Shown here one piece after another: positions 9,618 through 45,755 of a stretch of 64,000 nt of DNA; the stretch's first letter is position 1; every line of letters begins with the position of its first letter. Location: positions 1,550,001 to 1,614,000 of the forward strand of contig CM066294.1 of the NCBI GenBank assembly GCA_033816765.1, given 5' to 3'. Below the pieces are notes generated by a model that had not been told where the DNA came from, did not search any database, and worked only from the letters and a program-made list of their open reading frames with translations. A program made the translations under genes and the position numbers. The DNA comes from Nothopassalora personata. Lineage: Eukaryota > Ascomycota > Dothideomycetes > Mycosphaerellales > Mycosphaerellaceae.

Positions 9618-9936
9618 TGTTAGGAACCGCTGTACGTTATCACAACTCGGGCTTGGATCTTTGCAGGGATGTCTCAATCAGTTATGAAGGTAGTGGTTCC
9701 AAACAGTATATGGTGTATACTTAAAATGAGTTGAGCACGAGGCTCCTATCTACTTGCAAAAGAGCGTCGTCTATATAGTGCCGTGTCTTGGCGTGATCTT
9801 TCCTGCTCTCTCTGCTCTCTCTGCTCTCTCGAGAGAGCACCCGAGAGCACTGAGAGCACTCTGCATATCGGGTGCATCCGCTGGTCTGCTGGCATCGATT
9901 GGTTGGCTACGGGCTTCCCCAGACCGATCCGTAACA
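9618..9936 (-). repeat. LTR of element A (3' LTR in gag orientation)
   Basis: 319 bp. In gag orientation it opens TGTTACGGATCGG, has GCTCT/GAGAGC repeats including the palindrome GCTCTCTCGAGAGAGC (9823-9838), then a TATA box (CTATATAG) and ends CGGTTCCTAACA. Confidence 0.92.
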
Positions 9937-10104
9937 CCATCCCCCTTCTAGCCTAGCTTCGTCCCGAAGCTTACAAGATGTCATTCCTTTCCAACTTTGT
10001 CATCCAACGATGTCTTCTTCTTCCCTTTCCCTTCCCGTCACCAAAACACCAGTACGCATCGTCGCAAGAAGCTTGCCAAGTTCATTCGAGAGAACGGGAT
10101 TACT

Positions 10105-10651
10105 ATGGTCAAGTCGTGCTCTTTCTGCACTCGTGAGAAAAAGGTGTGCCGTGTCCACATCAAATCGGGCCGCTGTTCGGAGTGCAACGAACACAACATC
10201 AAGGGTTGTGACGTGCGAGTCACTCCTGCTGAGTGGAAGTCCCTTCAGTCCGTACGGGACAAGCTCACCCGTGAGCTTGAAGCGGTCCGTCATGATCTCG
10301 TTCGCAAGAGTGAAGAGATCGCGGCAGCCTATGCGAAGGAGGCGCGTCTTCGTCGTCAGCTTGAGCTGCACGAAAAGCGCGAGGGCGAGGCGATCGCTGT
10401 CGAGGAGGCGAGCATCCAAGTGTTAGAACAAGGGGAGCTCGAGGCCGCTCCGCCTTCCATCCCGGAAGACTGGTGGTTTCCTGCCTCCGATCCTTCGGTC
10501 TTCGACCCTAGCTTGTCCTTGGATGGGAATCTCCTCCTTCCTGAATCCTTCTCGGAGTTGGTCTCGTCGTAAGTTCGTCCTTTATCTGTTTTCCGTGTCG
10601 TAGTGTTGACTTCTGTGTCCTAGGTCATCAAATCAAGAAGCCGCTGTTTGA
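10105..10651 (+). CDS. Antisense Zn2Cys6-cluster / coiled-coil protein of element A
   Basis: Exon 10105-10568, intron 10569-10623 (GTAAGT..GTTGAC..CTAG), exon 10624-10651; 163 residues from the ATG at 10105. Cysteines follow CX2CX6CX8CX2CX7C at residues 5-34 (CSFCTREKKVC...CSECNEHNIKGC), which fits the fungal Zn(II)2Cys6 binuclear cluster. A charged helix (about 45-120, a likely coiled coil) and an acidic/aromatic tail follow. The frame stays open upstream with basic residues (RRKKLAK), but the ATG matching the B/C start (10010) is in another frame, so this copy may have lost its first codons to a small indel. Probable role: DNA-binding regulator; inferred only. Confidence 0.65.
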
Positions 10652-10676
10652 TGCCTTTATCGTCAGGTCGTTTCTG

Positions 10677-11669
10677 CTAGGCAGATTTCGAGAGAAAGCT
10701 CTCGCATTCCTGGTATGCATTCTCTTCGCGAATCATTGCGTTGAACTCGCGGCTAACTATGTTCTTTTTCTTGCAGTTCCTTGCATAATGGCCTTGCTCG
10801 CCACATACGTAGCAGGTGGAACCTTTGCTCTTCAGCCCCCTTCCTGTCCTACGTTCCGTTACGTCCAATTCCATTGGGTCTCCGTAACCATTAGGGTCCT
10901 GACTTCTGGCCTTGAAGCCCCCTCTTCCGCCCGCGGCGGGTCTCTGGTATCCAGGCTGTACGTGTCGGTCGTACCTCAACTCCTGGAGCCTTTCGTCGAT
11001 CTCCTTTGCTGCCTTGATCATCGCCCCTAGCGTAACGACGCTGGCGTTTCGGGATAGTTCGGCTTTGACGTTGTCTTTCAGCCCGAGGTAGAACTGCGAT
11101 CGCAAAGCTGCGTCGTTCCATTCCAGGTCGGCGGCATATCCTTGGAATTCTGAGGCGTACAGCGCTACAGAAGTAGTCTGTCGAAGTTGTCGGATATGTC
11201 GGTCGGCGTATACCTCCTCATTTGGTATCCCGTATAGATCATCGAGTTTCGTCTCAAACTCGTCGTAGTCGTGGAAAATTTTTCGAGTTTCCGTTTTCGG
11301 TGTTTCTCCCTCGCCCTGGTTGTGTAGCCAGTCCTTGAGGTATGGTCGGAATCCTCTAGCTGCTTTTCCTCGTAGGAAGGATGCGGCGTACAAGACCTTA
11401 GAGGCCTCGCCTTGAAACTGGTGTGCGTTGAAGTGAAGGTACAACTGAACCTGCAGTTGAAAAGCCTCCAGTTTGTCCTTGGTCCCGTCGAACGTCTCCG
11501 GCGTAGATACCTTAGGTGCACGGTGGTGGTCCAATGGGTTCAGCATACCCATAGGAGTGTTGTTGTTCTTGCTGCTTCCTGTAATCGACATTTCGCTCAT
11601 TCGTTCCGTGATGCCAGTTGACTGTGGCTGTTGTCGTGACGGACTCCGGGTAGCGTCTCTCCCAGACAT
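10677..11669 (-). CDS. gag: Gag (Ty3-type) of element A
   Basis: 330 residues from the ATG at 11669. A Retrotrans_gag-like capsid region (FDGTKDKLEAFQLQVQLYLH ... AASFLRGKAARGF, about 60-240) is followed by a zinc knuckle CYVCGEQGHYARNC (CX2CX4HX4C, about 285-298). It forms virus-like particles and packages element RNA. It differs from the element B Gag at six positions, all in the last 40 or so residues. It ends 25 bp from the end of the antisense gene (tail-to-tail). Confidence 0.9.
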   Translation of the reverse strand: MSGRDATRSPSRQQPQSTGITERMSEMSITGSSKNNNTPMGMLNPLDHHRAPKVSTPETFDGTKDKLEAFQLQVQLYLHFNAHQFQGEASKVLYAASFLRGKAARGFRPYLKDWLHNQGEGETPKTETRKIFHDYDEFETKLDDLYGIPNEEVYADRHIRQLRQTTSVALYASEFQGYAADLEWNDAALRSQFYLGLKDNVKAELSRNASVVTLGAMIKAAKEIDERLQELRYDRHVQPGYQRPAAGGRGGFKARSQDPNGYGDPMELDVTERRTGRGLKSKGSTCYVCGEQGHYARNCKKKNIVSREFNAMIREENAYQECESFLSKSA

Positions 11670-11701
11670 ATGCAAAGTGCCCTGGTGGTGGTGCTCAAAG
11701 T

Positions 11702-12020
11702 TGTTAGGAACCGCTGTACGTTATCACAACTCGGGCTTGGATCTTTGCAGGGATGTCTCAATCAGTTATGAAGGTAGTGGTTCCAAACAGTATATGGTGT
11801 ATACTTAAAATGAGTTGAGCACGAGGCTCCTATCTACTTGCAAAAGAGCGTCGTCTATATAGTGCCGTGTCTTGGCGTGATCTTTCCTGCTCTCTCTGCT
11901 CTCTCTGCTCTCTCGAGAGAGCACCCGAGAGCACTGAGAGCACTCTGCATATCGGGTGCATCCGCTGGTCTGCTGGCATCGATTGGTTGGCTACGGGCTT
12001 CCCCAGACCGATCCGTAACA
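11702..12020 (-). repeat. LTR of element A (5' LTR in gag orientation)
   Basis: 319 bp, no difference from 9618-9936 seen by eye. Target duplication AAGGG follows at 12021-12025. The next bases in gag orientation are the leader ACTTTGAGCACCACC. Confidence 0.92.
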
Positions 12021-14536: not shown

Positions 14537-14852
14537 TGTTACGGTCCGGTACGATCGTGCACGTGGAAGAACTTCATTCGTTGGGAATAGGGACACGCGC
14601 TGCCAATGAGCGGGCGCTCTTGTGTGACTCATAGCAGAGCGCTCTTAGTGCTCTACCGAGAGAGCAGGACAGACCGCGCCAAGACATGGCACTATATAGA
14701 CGACGCTCTTTTGCAAGTAGATAGGAGCTTCGTGCTCAACTCATTTCAAGTATACACCATATACTGTTTGGGACCACTACCTTCTCAACGAGTCAGAGAC
14801 ATCACTGCAAAGATCCAAGCCCAGTTGGGATAACGAACAGCGGTTCCTAACA
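14537..14852 (+). repeat. 5' LTR of element B
   Basis: 316 bp, TGTTACGGTCCGG at the start and CGGTTCCTAACA at the end; TATA box at 14693-14698. Its R/U5 half differs from those of A and C (for example GTTTGGGACC against GTTTGGAACC). Confidence 0.92.
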
Positions 14853-14884
14853 ACTTTGAGCACCACCACCAGGGCCCTTTGCAT

Positions 14885-15877
14885 ATGTCTGGGAGAGACG
14901 CTACCCGGAGTCCGTCACGACAACAGCCACAGTCAACTGGCATTACGGAACGAATGAGCGAAATGTCGATTACAGGAAGCAGCAAGAACAACAACACTCC
15001 TATGGGTATGCTGAACCCATTGGACCACCACCGTGCACCTAAGGTGTCTACGCCGGAGACGTTCGACGGGACCAAGGACAAACTGGAGGCTTTTCAACTG
15101 CAGGTTCAGTTGTACCTTCACTTCAACGCACACCAGTTTCAAGGCGAGGCTTCTAAAGTCTTGTACGCCGCATCCTTCCTACGAGGAAAAGCAGCTAGAG
15201 GATTCCGACCATACCTCAAGGACTGGCTACACAACCAGGGCGAGGGAGAAACACCGAAAACGGAAACTCGAAAAATTTTCCACGACTACGACGAGTTTGA
15301 GACGAAACTCGATGATCTATACGGGATACCAAATGAGGAGGTATACGCCGACCGACATATCCGACAACTTCGACAGACTACTTCTGTAGCGCTGTACGCC
15401 TCAGAATTCCAAGGATATGCCGCCGACCTGGAATGGAACGACGCAGCTTTGCGATCGCAGTTCTACCTCGGGCTGAAAGACAACGTCAAAGCCGAACTAT
15501 CCCGAAACGCCAGCGTCGTTACGCTAGGGGCGATGATCAAGGCAGCAAAGGAGATCGACGAAAGGCTCCAGGAGTTGAGGTACGACCGACACGTACAGCC
15601 TGGATACCAGAGACCCGCCGCGGGCGGAAGAGGGGGCTTCAAGGCCAGAAGTCAGGACCCTAATGGTTACGGAGACCCAATGGAATTGGACGTAACGGAA
15701 CGTAGGACAGGAAGGGGGCTGAAGAGCAAAGGTTCCACCTGCTACGTATGTGGCGAGCAAGGCCATTTTGCAAGGAACTGCAAGAAAAAGAACATGGTTA
15801 GCCGCGAGTTCAACGCAATGATTCGCGAAGAGAATACATACCAGGAATGCGAGAACTTCTTCTCGAAATCTGCCTAG
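14885..15877 (+). CDS. gag: Gag (Ty3-type) of element B
   Basis: 330 residues from the ATG at 14885 (an in-frame TTG six bases earlier is not needed). Capsid-like region with AASFLRGKAARGF and zinc knuckle CYVCGEQGHFARNC near the C-terminus, then a short lysine-rich and acidic tail. Two residues differ from the C copy and six from the A copy. No protease or polymerase frame follows. Confidence 0.9.
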   Translation: MSGRDATRSPSRQQPQSTGITERMSEMSITGSSKNNNTPMGMLNPLDHHRAPKVSTPETFDGTKDKLEAFQLQVQLYLHFNAHQFQGEASKVLYAASFLRGKAARGFRPYLKDWLHNQGEGETPKTETRKIFHDYDEFETKLDDLYGIPNEEVYADRHIRQLRQTTSVALYASEFQGYAADLEWNDAALRSQFYLGLKDNVKAELSRNASVVTLGAMIKAAKEIDERLQELRYDRHVQPGYQRPAAGGRGGFKARSQDPNGYGDPMELDVTERRTGRGLKSKGSTCYVCGEQGHFARNCKKKNMVSREFNAMIREENTYQECENFFSKSA

Positions 15878-15904
15878 CAGAAACAACCTGAGGACAGCAA
15901 GGCA

Positions 15905-16490
15905 TCAAACAGCGGCTTCTTGATTTGATGACCTAGGACACAGAAGTCAACACAACGACACGGGACAAATGACTACTGGATATCACGACTTACGACGGAT
16001 GGCCATCGGGCCACGAGAACGGAGAAGCGAGGCCGGCTCCAAGAAGATCGCTCTCGAGACCAGGGAAGTCCGACAGTTCGGGGTCGTTCGGATCGAACTC
16101 TGTGTTGGCGGCGAGGTGGGCTACTTCCTCGTCGACCCGGGAGTTATTCATGTTTCGAACCTCGCGATTGCGACGGATCCGCTGACGGAGAGCCTCGATC
16201 TTTCGGAAAATGTCTTCCGCGGAAATCTTGAGCCGCTCTATCTCCTGCTCGTCTGACTCGATCTTCTCTGTCAACTCTTCCACGACGCGGTCGAGTTTCT
16301 CGAGGGAGGAGGTGACACAAGGTTTCCCGAGGCGGGTGCAGTTGGCACAAGACATGATGGAAAAATCGGCAATGTAAACGCAGGGGCGCTGATTCCGGCA
16401 ACAGTGGTCGCAAGGTTTAGAAGGAACAAAGGGATCAGCAAAGATTTTAGCAAGACGACGTTTTTTGCGCTGGGCGGAGGACGAAGACAT
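15905..16490 (-). CDS. Antisense Zn2Cys6-cluster / coiled-coil protein of element B
   Basis: Exon 15994-16490, intron 15933-15993 (GTAAGT..TTGAC..CTAG on the - strand), exon 15905-15932; 174 residues. Start MSSSSAQRKKRRLAK is basic. Cysteines CDHCCRNQRPC...CANCTRLGKPC (about 27-53) follow CX2CX6CX10CX2CX6C, within the consensus of fungal Zn(II)2Cys6 DNA-binding domains. A long charged helix (about 57-115, LEKLDRVVEELTEKIESDEQ) suits a dimerising coiled coil, and the tail is acidic and Pro/Trp-containing. The spliced end SSNQEAAV is shared with the A copy although most of the protein is not. Probably a nuclear DNA-binding protein; target unknown. Confidence 0.72.
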
Positions 16491-16597
16491 GGTAAGAAAA
16501 GGGTGGTTGCGGAATTTGAATTTCGGAGGACAGGACCTACTTATGACTAACGAACGACACGTGATCGCTGGGGCATCGATCCTAGGGAGGGGGATGG

Positions 16598-16913
16598 TGT
16601 TACGGTCCGGTACGATCGTGCACGTGGAAGAACTTCATTCGTTGGGAATAGGGACACGCGCTGCCAATGAGCGGGCGCTCTTGTGTGACTCATAGCAGAG
16701 CGCTCTTAGTGCTCTACCGAGAGAGCAGGACAGACCGCGCCAAGACATGGCACTATATAGACGACGCTCTTTTGCAAGTAGATAGGAGCTTCGTGCTCAA
16801 CTCATTTCAAGTATACACCATATACTGTTTGGGACCACTACCTTCTCAACGAGTCAGAGACATCACTGCAAAGATCCAAGCCCAGTTGGGATAACGAACA
16901 GCGGTTCCTAACA
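16598..16913 (+). repeat. 3' LTR of element B
   Basis: 316 bp, reads the same as 14537-14852, preceded by a polypurine tract and followed by target duplication CGATA. Confidence 0.92.
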
Positions 16914-43383: not shown

Positions 43384-43699
43384 TGTTACGGTCCGGTACG
43401 ATCGTGCACGTGGAAGAACTTCATTCGTTGGGAATAGGGACACGCGCTGCCAATGAGCGGGCGCTCTTGTGTGACTCATAGCAGAGCGCTCTTAGTGCTC
43501 TACCGAGAGAGCAGGACAGACCGCGCCAAGACATGGCACTATATAGACGACGCTCTTTTGCAAGTAGATAGGAGCTTCGTGCTCAACTCATTTTAAGTAT
43601 ACACCATATACTGTTTGGAACCACTACCTTCATAACTGATTGAGACATCCCTGCAAAGATCCAAGCCCGAGTTGTGATAACGTACAGCGGTTCCTAACA
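43384..43699 (+). repeat. 5' LTR of element C
   Basis: 316 bp, TGTTACGGTCCGG..CGGTTCCTAACA; mosaic of the B-type U3 and the A-type R/U5. Confidence 0.92.
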
Positions 43700-43731
43700 A
43701 CTTTGAGCACCACCACCAGGGCCCTTTGCAT

Positions 43732-44724
43732 ATGTCTGGGAGAGACGCTACCCGGAGTCCGTCACGACAACAGCCACAGTCAACTGGCATCACGGAACGA
43801 ATGAGCGAAATGTCGATTACAGGAAGCAGCAAGAACAACAACACTCCTATGGGTATGCTGAACCCATTGGACCACCACCGTGCACCTAAGGTGTCTACGC
43901 CGGAGACGTTCGACGGGACCAAGGACAAACTGGAGGCTTTTCAACTGCAGGTTCAGTTGTACCTTCACTTCAACGCACACCAGTTTCAAGGCGAGGCCTC
44001 TAAGGTCTTGTACGCCGCATCCTTCCTACGAGGAAAAGCAGCTAGAGGATTCCGACCATACCTCAAGGACTGGCTACACAACCAGGGCGAGGGAGAAACA
44101 CCGAAAACGGAAACTCGAAAAATTTTCCACGACTACGACGAGTTTGAGACGAAACTCGATGATCTATACGGGATACCAAATGAGGAGGTATACGCCGACC
44201 GACATATCCGACAACTTCGACAGACTACTTCTGTAGCGCTGTACGCCTCAGAATTCCAAGGATATGCCGCCGACCTGGAATGGAACGACGCAGCTTTGCG
44301 ATCGCAGTTCTACCTCGGGCTGAAAGACAACGTCAAAGCCGAACTATCCCGAAACGCCAGCGTCGTTACGCTAGGGGCGATGATCAAGGCAGCAAAGGAG
44401 ATCGACGAAAGGCTCCAGGATTTGAGGTACGACCGATTCGTACAGCCTGGATACCAGAGACCCGCCGCGGGCGGAAGAGGGGGCTTCAAGGCCAGAAGTC
44501 AGGACCCTAATGGTTACGGAGACCCAATGGAATTGGACGTAACGGAACGTAGGACAGGAAGGGGGCTGAAGAGCAAAGGTTCCACCTGCTACGTATGTGG
44601 CGAGCAAGGCCACTTTGCAAGAAACTGCAAGAAGAAGAACATGGTTAGCCGCGAGTTCAACGCAATGATTCGCGAAGAGAATACATACCAGGAATGCGAG
44701 AACTTCTTCTCGAAATCTGCCTAG
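43732..44724 (+). CDS. gag: Gag (Ty3-type) of element C
   Basis: 330 residues from the ATG at 43732. Differs from the B copy by two residues (LQDLRYDRF in place of LQELRYDRH). Zinc knuckle CYVCGEQGHFARNC intact. Frame fully open. Confidence 0.9.
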   Translation: MSGRDATRSPSRQQPQSTGITERMSEMSITGSSKNNNTPMGMLNPLDHHRAPKVSTPETFDGTKDKLEAFQLQVQLYLHFNAHQFQGEASKVLYAASFLRGKAARGFRPYLKDWLHNQGEGETPKTETRKIFHDYDEFETKLDDLYGIPNEEVYADRHIRQLRQTTSVALYASEFQGYAADLEWNDAALRSQFYLGLKDNVKAELSRNASVVTLGAMIKAAKEIDERLQDLRYDRFVQPGYQRPAAGGRGGFKARSQDPNGYGDPMELDVTERRTGRGLKSKGSTCYVCGEQGHFARNCKKKNMVSREFNAMIREENTYQECENFFSKSA

Positions 44725-44751
44725 CAGAAACAACCTGAGGACAGCAAGGCA

Positions 44752-45337
44752 TCAAACAGCGGCTTCTTGATTTGATGACCTAGGACACAGAAGTCAACAC
44801 AACGACACGGGACAAATGACTATTGGATTCCACGACTTACGACGGATGGCCATCGGGCCACGAGAACGGAGAAGCGAGGCCGGCTCCAAGAAGATCGCTC
44901 TCGAGACCAGGGAAGTCCGACAGTTCGGGGTCGTTCGGATCGAACTCTGTGTTGGCGGCGAGGTGGGCTACTTCCTCGTCGACCCGGGAGTTATTCATGT
45001 TTCGAACCTCGCGATTGCGACGGATCCGCTGACGGAGAGCCTCGATCTTTCGGAAAATGTCTTCCGCGGAAATCTTGAGCCGCTCTATCTCCTGCTCGTC
45101 TGACTCGATCTTCTCTGTCAACTCTTCCACGACGCGGTCGAGTTTCTCGAGGGAGGAGGTGACACAAGGTTTCCCGAGGCGGGTGCAGTTGGCACAAGAC
45201 ATGATGGAAGAATCGGCAATGTAAACGCAGGGGCGCTGATTCCGGCAACAGTGGTCGCAAGGTTTAGAAGGAACAAAGGGATCAGCAAAGATTTTAGCAA
45301 GACGACGTTTTTTGCGCTGGGCGGAGGACGAAGACAT
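44752..45337 (-). CDS. Antisense Zn2Cys6-cluster / coiled-coil protein of element C
   Basis: Exon 44841-45337, intron 44780-44840, exon 44752-44779; 174 residues. One substitution from the B protein (SSIMS for FSIMS between cysteines 3 and 4); all six cluster cysteines, the coiled coil and the intron signals are kept. Conservation of the open frame in two independent insertions argues that it is a real gene. Confidence 0.72.
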
Positions 45338-45439
45338 GGTAAGAAAAGGGTGGTTGCGGAATTTGAATTTCGGAGGACAGGACTACTTATGACTAACGAC
45401 ACGTGATCGCTGGGGCATCGATCCTAGGGAGGGGGATGG

Positions 45440-45755
45440 TGTTACGGTCCGGTACGATCGTGCACGTGGAAGAACTTCATTCGTTGGGAATAGGGACACG
45501 CGCTGCCAATGAGCGGGCGCTCTTGTGTGACTCATAGCAGAGCGCTCTTAGTGCTCTACCGAGAGAGCAGGACAGACCGCGCCAAGACATGGCACTATAT
45601 AGACGACGCTCTTTTGCAAGTAGATAGGAGCTTCGTGCTCAACTCATTTTAAGTATACACCATATACTGTTTGGAACCACTACCTTCATAACTGATTGAG
45701 ACATCCCTGCAAAGATCCAAGCCCGAGTTGTGATAACGTACAGCGGTTCCTAACA
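45440..45755 (+). repeat. 3' LTR of element C
   Basis: 316 bp, reads the same as 43384-43699; preceded by the polypurine tract AGGGAGGGGGATGG. Confidence 0.92.

Follow-up and report, generated by a model that had tools for sequence, protein, structure and literature searches.

Plants harbour gag-only elements, the TR-GAG, which have long terminal repeats (LTRs) and gag but no pol, and foamy viruses encode in a 3' gene a DNA-binding transactivator of their own LTR, Tas/Bel-1. Here we consider gag-only Ty3-type elements of the ascomycete Nothopassalora personata, three of which (A, B and C) are found complete in a stretch of 64,000 nucleotides (the window; positions 1,550,001 to 1,614,000 of contig CM066294.1, GenBank assembly GCA_033816765.1). 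They resemble TR-GAG in their make-up, but differ in carrying a regulator-type gene on the opposite strand; unlike this gene, that of Tas/Bel-1 lies on the sense strand, and its product is not a zinc cluster.

An antisense gene at this position has already been described, both in fungi and in plants. In the Boty-like elements of Botrytis cinerea, it is the gene brtn (Zhao et al. 2011, as related in PMC8365987, PMC7264820, PMC4227169 and PMC5987419). According to these accounts, Boty, likewise an ascomycete element, encodes gag-pol and a chromodomain and has its antisense gene placed after pol, ahead of the 3' LTR; the present elements, which resemble it in gene position, differ in that they include gag-only forms, many divergent versions of the gene, a predicted zinc cluster and U3 repeats. 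A transcript matching a truncated Pol together with BRTN is reported for a Monilinia transcriptome in PMC5987419. The plant elements Grande, RIRE2, Retand and PvRetro13 possess, according to PMC7264820, an extra gene alike in position and orientation, the likeness being one of gene placement across kingdoms; in that account, the antisense genes beside the 3' LTR of fungal and plant retroelements have no assigned function. The initial annotation of the window mentioned antisense genes in a few plant retroelements; the fungal cases occupy the same place. The closest functional precedent, by analogy, is VANC of the Arabidopsis VANDAL transposons, for which anti-silencing was shown experimentally; there, too, the proteins are encoded by the elements, and their targets are often tandem repeats that vary between related elements (PMC5735166). 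VANDAL elements, however, belong to plants, whereas in the fungal LTR element the target would be read from the U3 repeats alone. What is new here is that at least 13 divergent antisense genes sit on one chassis, nearly all of them with a U3 of their own. No zinc-cluster protein in an LTR antisense gene was noticed among the titles and abstract openings listed in a literature search, and novelty in print is not claimed.

A divergent 3' module on a shared chassis

Together, the antisense gene and U3 make up a 3' module that is divergent and exchangeable, whereas the gag/R-U5 chassis that bears it hardly varies. This feature, as well as the enrichment of short repeats in most U3s upstream of the TATA-like box, went unnoticed in the initial annotation. 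The 15 gag-only representatives chosen make 14 classes when B and C (99% identity) are joined and 13 when S217 and S215 (97%) are joined too; the other classes share 24-65% protein identity with one another. The first 75-80 nt or so past the gag stop are alike in most classes, though less so in S217 and S215, and divergence sets in beyond them. Among 17 gag-only LTRs, the identity from the TATA-like box through R-U5 is at least 89% (median 95%); U3s, by comparison, show more similarity than expected by chance in 65 of the 210 pairs, full-length elements included. Where a 3' end could be assigned to an antisense class, its U3 is the usual one of that class in 54 of 56 cases, namely, in 50 of 52 (the more informative figure) for the 11 multi-row classes and in four for single-row classes; eight of these 11 multi-row classes have mixed R-U5 haplotypes. 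The exceptions are locus L002, which combines a B63 protein with the U3 of L079 (S184), and one row of L059 that is unassignable. In a tree of 29 antisense rows, the gag-only rows do not form one group (they require five changes, of which starred branches force at least four), and the sister of A39 is the full-length element aut41 (98/98). The chassis, therefore, has carried modules of several lineages.

The antisense open reading frame (ORF) encodes a protein under purifying selection. A match to it was found in 102 of 121 gag copies, in ten groups, with one stop within the matched stretch in four, all of class A; 18 of the remaining 19 copies were read, and in these the gene is open in 14, without a long ORF in two (L071 and L074) and truncated in two (L083 and L084). 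Altogether, it is open in 112 of the 120 gag-only copies examined, and the random decay of frames, which the initial annotation had named as telling against its idea, is not seen in the recent copies. In an alignment of the 15 gag-only representatives and four full-length elements, five cysteines are aligned in 19/19; the sixth shares a column in 12 of them and stands one position further to the left in the other seven. The spacings are those given in the initial annotation, CX2CX6CX10CX2CX6C in B and C and CX2CX6CX8CX2CX7C in A; the zinc-cluster pattern (CX2CX6CX5-16CX2CX6-8C) is matched by A, B and C and by 13 of the 19 representatives, while the six S types deviate by an X13 in the first loop. 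For S217 against S215, the one unsaturated pair, the synonymous divergence (dS) is 0.42 and the non-synonymous one (dN) is 0.017 (dN/dS 0.04). Ratios were given for the 31 of 171 class pairs with a protein identity of at least 0.40; dS is infinite in 12 of them and absent for B-C, and the ratio is finite in 18 (0.04-0.52), where all values besides S217/S215 (0.12-0.52) carry little weight because dS exceeds 1.2. The protein is kept, with its six cysteines and under purifying selection, in no fewer than 13 divergent classes; it is thus no product of chance, and a random or overprinted ORF is ruled out.

Older, stop-ridden relatives of the antisense gene are numerous in the genome. Class A has at least 32 genomic copies, of which five carry one TAG. 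The gene is lost, broken or shortened in L071, L074, L083, L084, L089 and L090, with L074 retaining an S200 stretch despite having no long antisense ORF; these six loci offer a natural test of the need for the gene in cis.

Predicted fold of the protein and repeats in U3

Modelling points to a Zn2Cys6 (Gal4-type) fold in the antisense protein, followed by a long coiled coil and an acidic tail. The AlphaFold model of A, built on a 14-sequence alignment, has a mean confidence (pLDDT) of 82 and contains short helices at residues 6-11 and 25-30, each starting within a CX2C pair, and a long helix at 41-113; in 18 of the 19 representatives, D+E outnumber K+R by two or more in the final 70 residues. 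The coiled coil and acidic tail of the initial annotation are both supported. In a Foldseek search with this model, 17 of 19 PDB matches were DNA-binding domains of Leu3, Gal4, Hap1, Put3, Ppr1 or Pho7 (E from 0.1 to 2, none significant singly). All six are zinc-cluster proteins, although the PDB title says so for Ppr1 only. The model of B is poorer (mean pLDDT 75, with block means of 61-71 across residues 21-60) and has six PDB matches at E of 1.5-8.5, three of them to named proteins of the zinc-cluster type (Pho7 twice and Put3). The others are 1cld, titled only as a DNA-binding protein, and two kinetochore entries, which we take to be Lac9 and Cep3, respectively, and thus zinc clusters as well. 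The case for the fold is that the match lists of A and B agree, single matches being non-significant. No zinc-cluster entry was noticed in single-sequence PDB searches or in a profile PDB search, and a comparison by VIA-align gave a weaker result than hoped.

The stretch of U3 upstream of the TATA-like box was searched for repeated 7-mers against 300 dinucleotide shuffles (p<0.05, uncorrected). Enrichment was found in 16 of 21 LTRs, that is, in 15 of 18 distinct U3s (14 of 21 LTRs by the commonest 6-mer), as compared with 0/18 for R-U5 (14 of these being near-copies), 0/12 for gag windows and 2/21 for internal windows of a full-length element; in the U3s of B/C, B63a/S184 and S205 it was not significant. 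The clearest arrays, spaced largely by 8-10 bp, consist of AGAGAGCA (A and S215), GATCAAGA-type units (S217), GACGAGCA repeated 16 times (B61), CAGATCCC (A39) and GGAGAGCA/CGAGATCA (aut41), whereas ACAGATCA (aut47, where a duplication within the LTR inflates the count) and ACTGATCA (aut42) recur less regularly. Among the copies listed, the last one lies 25-61 nt before the TATA-like box.

The gag-only family, its full-length relatives and the window

The three window insertions, about 2.4 kb each (Table 1), were correctly recognized in the initial annotation as complete elements that combine an intact Ty3-type gag with an opposite-strand six-cysteine gene. They show the features of Ty3-type LTR retrotransposons, namely, a TG...CA pair of LTRs (319 bp in A, 316 bp in B and in C, with zero mismatches within each pair), a 5-bp target-site duplication (TSD), a Ty3-type gag encoding 330 residues and, as read in B, a primer binding site (PBS) and a polypurine tract. 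In a Pfam scan of gag from A and B, Retrotrans_gag (42.5 bits in B, 42.4 in A) and zf-CCHC (27.6 and 26.4) are above their cut-offs, and Ty3_capsid is below (23.5 against 29.1). The ORF list of A, B and C contains no pol, in line with the initial annotation; the elements, therefore, are non-autonomous. In B, the stop codons of gag and of the antisense gene are 112 bp apart. Further direct repeats (42287-42535/58136-58384 and 45755-45914/52731-52890), in or near the islands of unusual composition (see below) that flank C, are probably remnants of older repeats.

Table 1. Positions of elements A, B and C and of their parts within the window.
Feature	Coordinates	Strand	Remarks
Element A	9618-12020	minus	LTR pair; TSD CCCTT
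A 3' LTR	9618-9936	-	AGAGAGCA repeats in U3, upstream of TATA
A antisense gene	10105-10572	+	155 aa; internal ATG as start
A gag	10677-11669	-	ORF listing and Pfam
A 5' LTR	11702-12020	-	TSD CCCTT
Element B	14537-16913	plus	LTR pair; TSD CGATA
B 5' LTR	14537-14852	+	316 bp, identical to B 3' LTR
B U3	14537-14689		TATATA inside 14690-14699
B putative R start	14732		GTGCTCAA; R-U5 beyond
B primer binding site	14853-14863	+	TTGAGCAC, complementary to GTGCTCAA in LTR (self-priming type)
B gag	14885-15877	+	330 aa; CCHC knuckle; Pfam Retrotrans_gag and zf-CCHC
B antisense gene	15990-16490	-	166 aa: basic N-terminus, Zn2Cys6-like cluster, coiled coil, acidic tail
B polypurine tract	16584-16597	+	adjoins 3' LTR; from sequence
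B 3' LTR	16598-16913	+	U3 also upstream of antisense gene
Element C	43384-45755	plus	LTR pair; TSD GGCAG
C 5' LTR	43384-43699	+	TSD GGCAG; U3 as in B, R-U5 haplotype differs
C gag	43732-44724	+	ORF listing
C antisense gene	44837-45337	-	166 aa; 99% identity to B
C 3' LTR	45440-45755	+	paired with C 5' LTR

The genome searched comprises 54.5 Mb in 40 contigs. Of 1,049 candidates in the gag search, the best 121 were scored, so that the list is biased towards good copies; these 121 are 98-100% identical, and 120 of them have no stop. The exact pattern of LTR end and PBS occurs at no fewer than 137 genomic sites, with none for a reversed control, so that the gag-only family is both large and young. 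The youth of the copies also follows from the LTR pairs of 25 two-LTR elements (22 loci and the three window elements, one locus being window B again), which show six differences in 8,259 bp, and from the matching TSDs in 22 of the 25. A full-length element with the gag-only LTR/PBS was not found among four of these pattern sites that lacked a scored gag and were read for 1.8 kb, the remaining sites not being excluded thereby; three of the four are gag-only copies (with the antisense gene intact, shortened and lost, respectively), and the fourth is a decayed copy, 89% alike, without a long ORF. At G000:C12:1355698-1367583, six gag-only copies are arranged head to tail with a spacing of 2,056 bp and apparently shared LTRs, possibly owing to unequal recombination or joining of circles; more close pairs are found on C5, C7, C8 and C11.

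Gag-only elements are not alone in having the antisense gene. Antisense relatives also occur at four loci for which no gag was scored (L061+L068, L062+L065, L063+L066 and L064+L067), and each of these holds a complete chromovirus, with LTRs of about 378-528 bp, identical within pairs, and 5-bp TSDs; the 5' LTR of aut47 has one extra unit of about 79 bp. In all four, the antisense gene lies between pol and the 3' LTR, and the Boty/brtn-type position, between the coding region and the 3' LTR, is seen in the gag-only elements as well; the 3' end of the antisense gene overlaps pol in L062 and L064. Pol ends in the motif WKGYD(E/D)SENTWEP, which we take to be chromodomain-like. The pol search scored 51 of 3,285 candidates, and these best 51 are 98-100% identical, with no stops in 50. 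The Gag proteins of the full-length and gag-only elements are only 36-38% identical, which makes the gag-only family a separate lineage; on the same grounds, a recent origin of the family by deletion from the four full-length elements under study is ruled out. The two lineages have in common the TGTTACGG/TAACA ends and the 5-bp TSDs. In B, aut47, aut41 and autB41, the elements included in the PBS test, a self-priming match of 8-9 nt lies 36-42 nt past the TATA-like box, the transcript start being placed by inference; the three full-length elements use other letters for this pairing (GCGTTCAA/TTGAACGC). We assume that this type of PBS is that of the Tf1/sushi-like chromoviruses. The 371-bp LTR of class A39 has a duplicated U3 start, and the LTR of aut47 contains a similar internal duplication (loci L008 and L062+L065).

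Elements A, B and C occupy islands with a composition like that left by repeat-induced point mutation (RIP): the TpA/ApT index is 0.86 in the elements, 1.43-2.45 in their flanks and about 0.5 in gene-rich parts (index coordinates offset by 24 bp for A and 1 bp for C, judged to be without effect). This composition and the types of elements suggest past RIP in the host. All 23 independent TSD-bearing gag-only insertions, from loci L001-L060 and including window B and C, have RIP-like flanks, as compared with 16 of 55 one-kb tiles of the window outside elements, a narrow background. The gag-only elements encode no chromodomain, though they are inserted in such flanks, which fits the use of a chromodomain integrase in trans but also a survival bias.

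A proposed private regulator for each U3

The mechanism that we propose is as follows. The gag-only elements would be non-autonomous Ty3 elements that make their own capsid and borrow pol from the full-length chromoviruses of the genome. The antisense protein, with its predicted Zn2Cys6-type fold, would dimerise via the coiled coil and bind the short U3 repeats in the LTR of its own family, whereupon the acidic/aromatic tail would activate, or keep open, the LTR promoter of gag and act as well on the divergent promoter of the antisense gene itself, which would run leftward from the U3 of the 3' LTR. One array could serve both directions because the U3 of the 3' LTR is also upstream of the antisense gene. 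Regulator and target U3 would move as one 3' module, template switching in mixed particles during reverse transcription may set varied modules on the shared gag/R-U5 chassis, and numerous families would arise in this way, every one of them with a regulator-promoter pair of its own. We see an even chance that the protein is a transcription factor of the Zn2Cys6 type which, as a dimer, activates the U3 of its own family or protects it from silencing; by analogy with VANC, such a role is more likely than that of a repressor. The proposal of the initial annotation that the element carries its own regulator thus remains the best reading, but the gene that encodes it is not limited to gag-only elements. 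More tentatively, and with the balance tilting against it, the zinc-cluster factors and their cognate U3 arrays may make up specificity groups, that is, exchangeable regulator-operator modules that have a gag chassis in common, pass by recombination between gag-only and full-length elements and diversify under selection for private control, in the manner of phage immunity modules or VANC systems.

Several observations weigh against regulation of this kind. The main weakness lies in the pairing of given proteins with given U3 motifs across classes: the cross-class correlation between the similarity of antisense proteins and that of U3s is weak, and gene and U3 could be linked simply because they are neighbours. 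With the Pfam profile Zn_clus (PF00172), A, B and C score 10.1-10.7 bits where the cut-off is 21, and 5 of the 14 members of the A-type alignment match at E<=1 (best 0.064); the zinc cluster put forward initially is favoured by the structure models and no more than hinted at by this profile. In class A, moreover, an upstream ATG (10010) is out of frame with the zinc-cluster ORF, which puts the start at an internal ATG, and the ORF is without the basic N-terminal stretch found in most other classes.

An alternative that uses the same regulator-plus-U3 module, with its 13 or more divergent classes on one chassis, is copy-number control: by binding its own U3, the antisense protein would silence the resident copies of the family. 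Diverged pairs would then escape the resident repressor, and modules would be driven to diversify and be swapped, much as in the immunity groups of phages. Negative frequency dependence of this sort would explain why U3s have diverged beyond alignment in most pairs and gag-only R-U5 has not. We nevertheless consider repression unlikely, as the repeats upstream of the TATA-like box and the acidic aromatic tail resemble activator sites and an activation domain, and five antisense-bearing groups reached 10-26 scored copies each. The weak link between protein and U3 similarity would also suit U3 repeats that are enhancers for host factors, with the antisense protein acting elsewhere, for example, on host genes, as would a GA(G/T)C core that, by our reading, is common to the motifs of classes with unrelated proteins; against this, the gene and U3 are co-inherited in nearly all 3' ends of the multi-row classes, though proximity may suffice for that, and we regard such a division of roles as distinctly unlikely. 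We likewise find it improbable that the protein serves after transcription or at integration, by aiding nuclear import, binding cDNA or RNA, or anchoring the integration complex in heterochromatin. The uniformly RIP-like flanks of the insertions, and the nuclear location reported in some cases for plant antisense ORFs at the same position (PMC7264820), would agree with such a role, but the full-length elements already carry a chromodomain-like end, and the U3 repeats and the gene-U3 linkage would be left unexplained. Very improbable, finally, is that the antisense transcript matters rather than the protein, through control by double-stranded or small RNA as proposed for antisense transcripts (PMC7264820), or that the ORF is a passenger, as its loss or damage at six loci might suggest, since protein-level constraint, with the low dN/dS of the S217/S215 pair, conserved cysteines and open frames between highly divergent classes, already disfavours both.

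Coming back to regulation of the element's own U3, the natural versions assembled on one chassis make the function of the antisense gene directly testable, as a candidate protein, a candidate target, swaps and deletions are available side by side. If the pairing of proteins with U3 repeats is true, these elements would provide a retroelement counterpart of the VANC anti-silencing and, in addition, a large natural set of zinc-cluster/DNA pairs.
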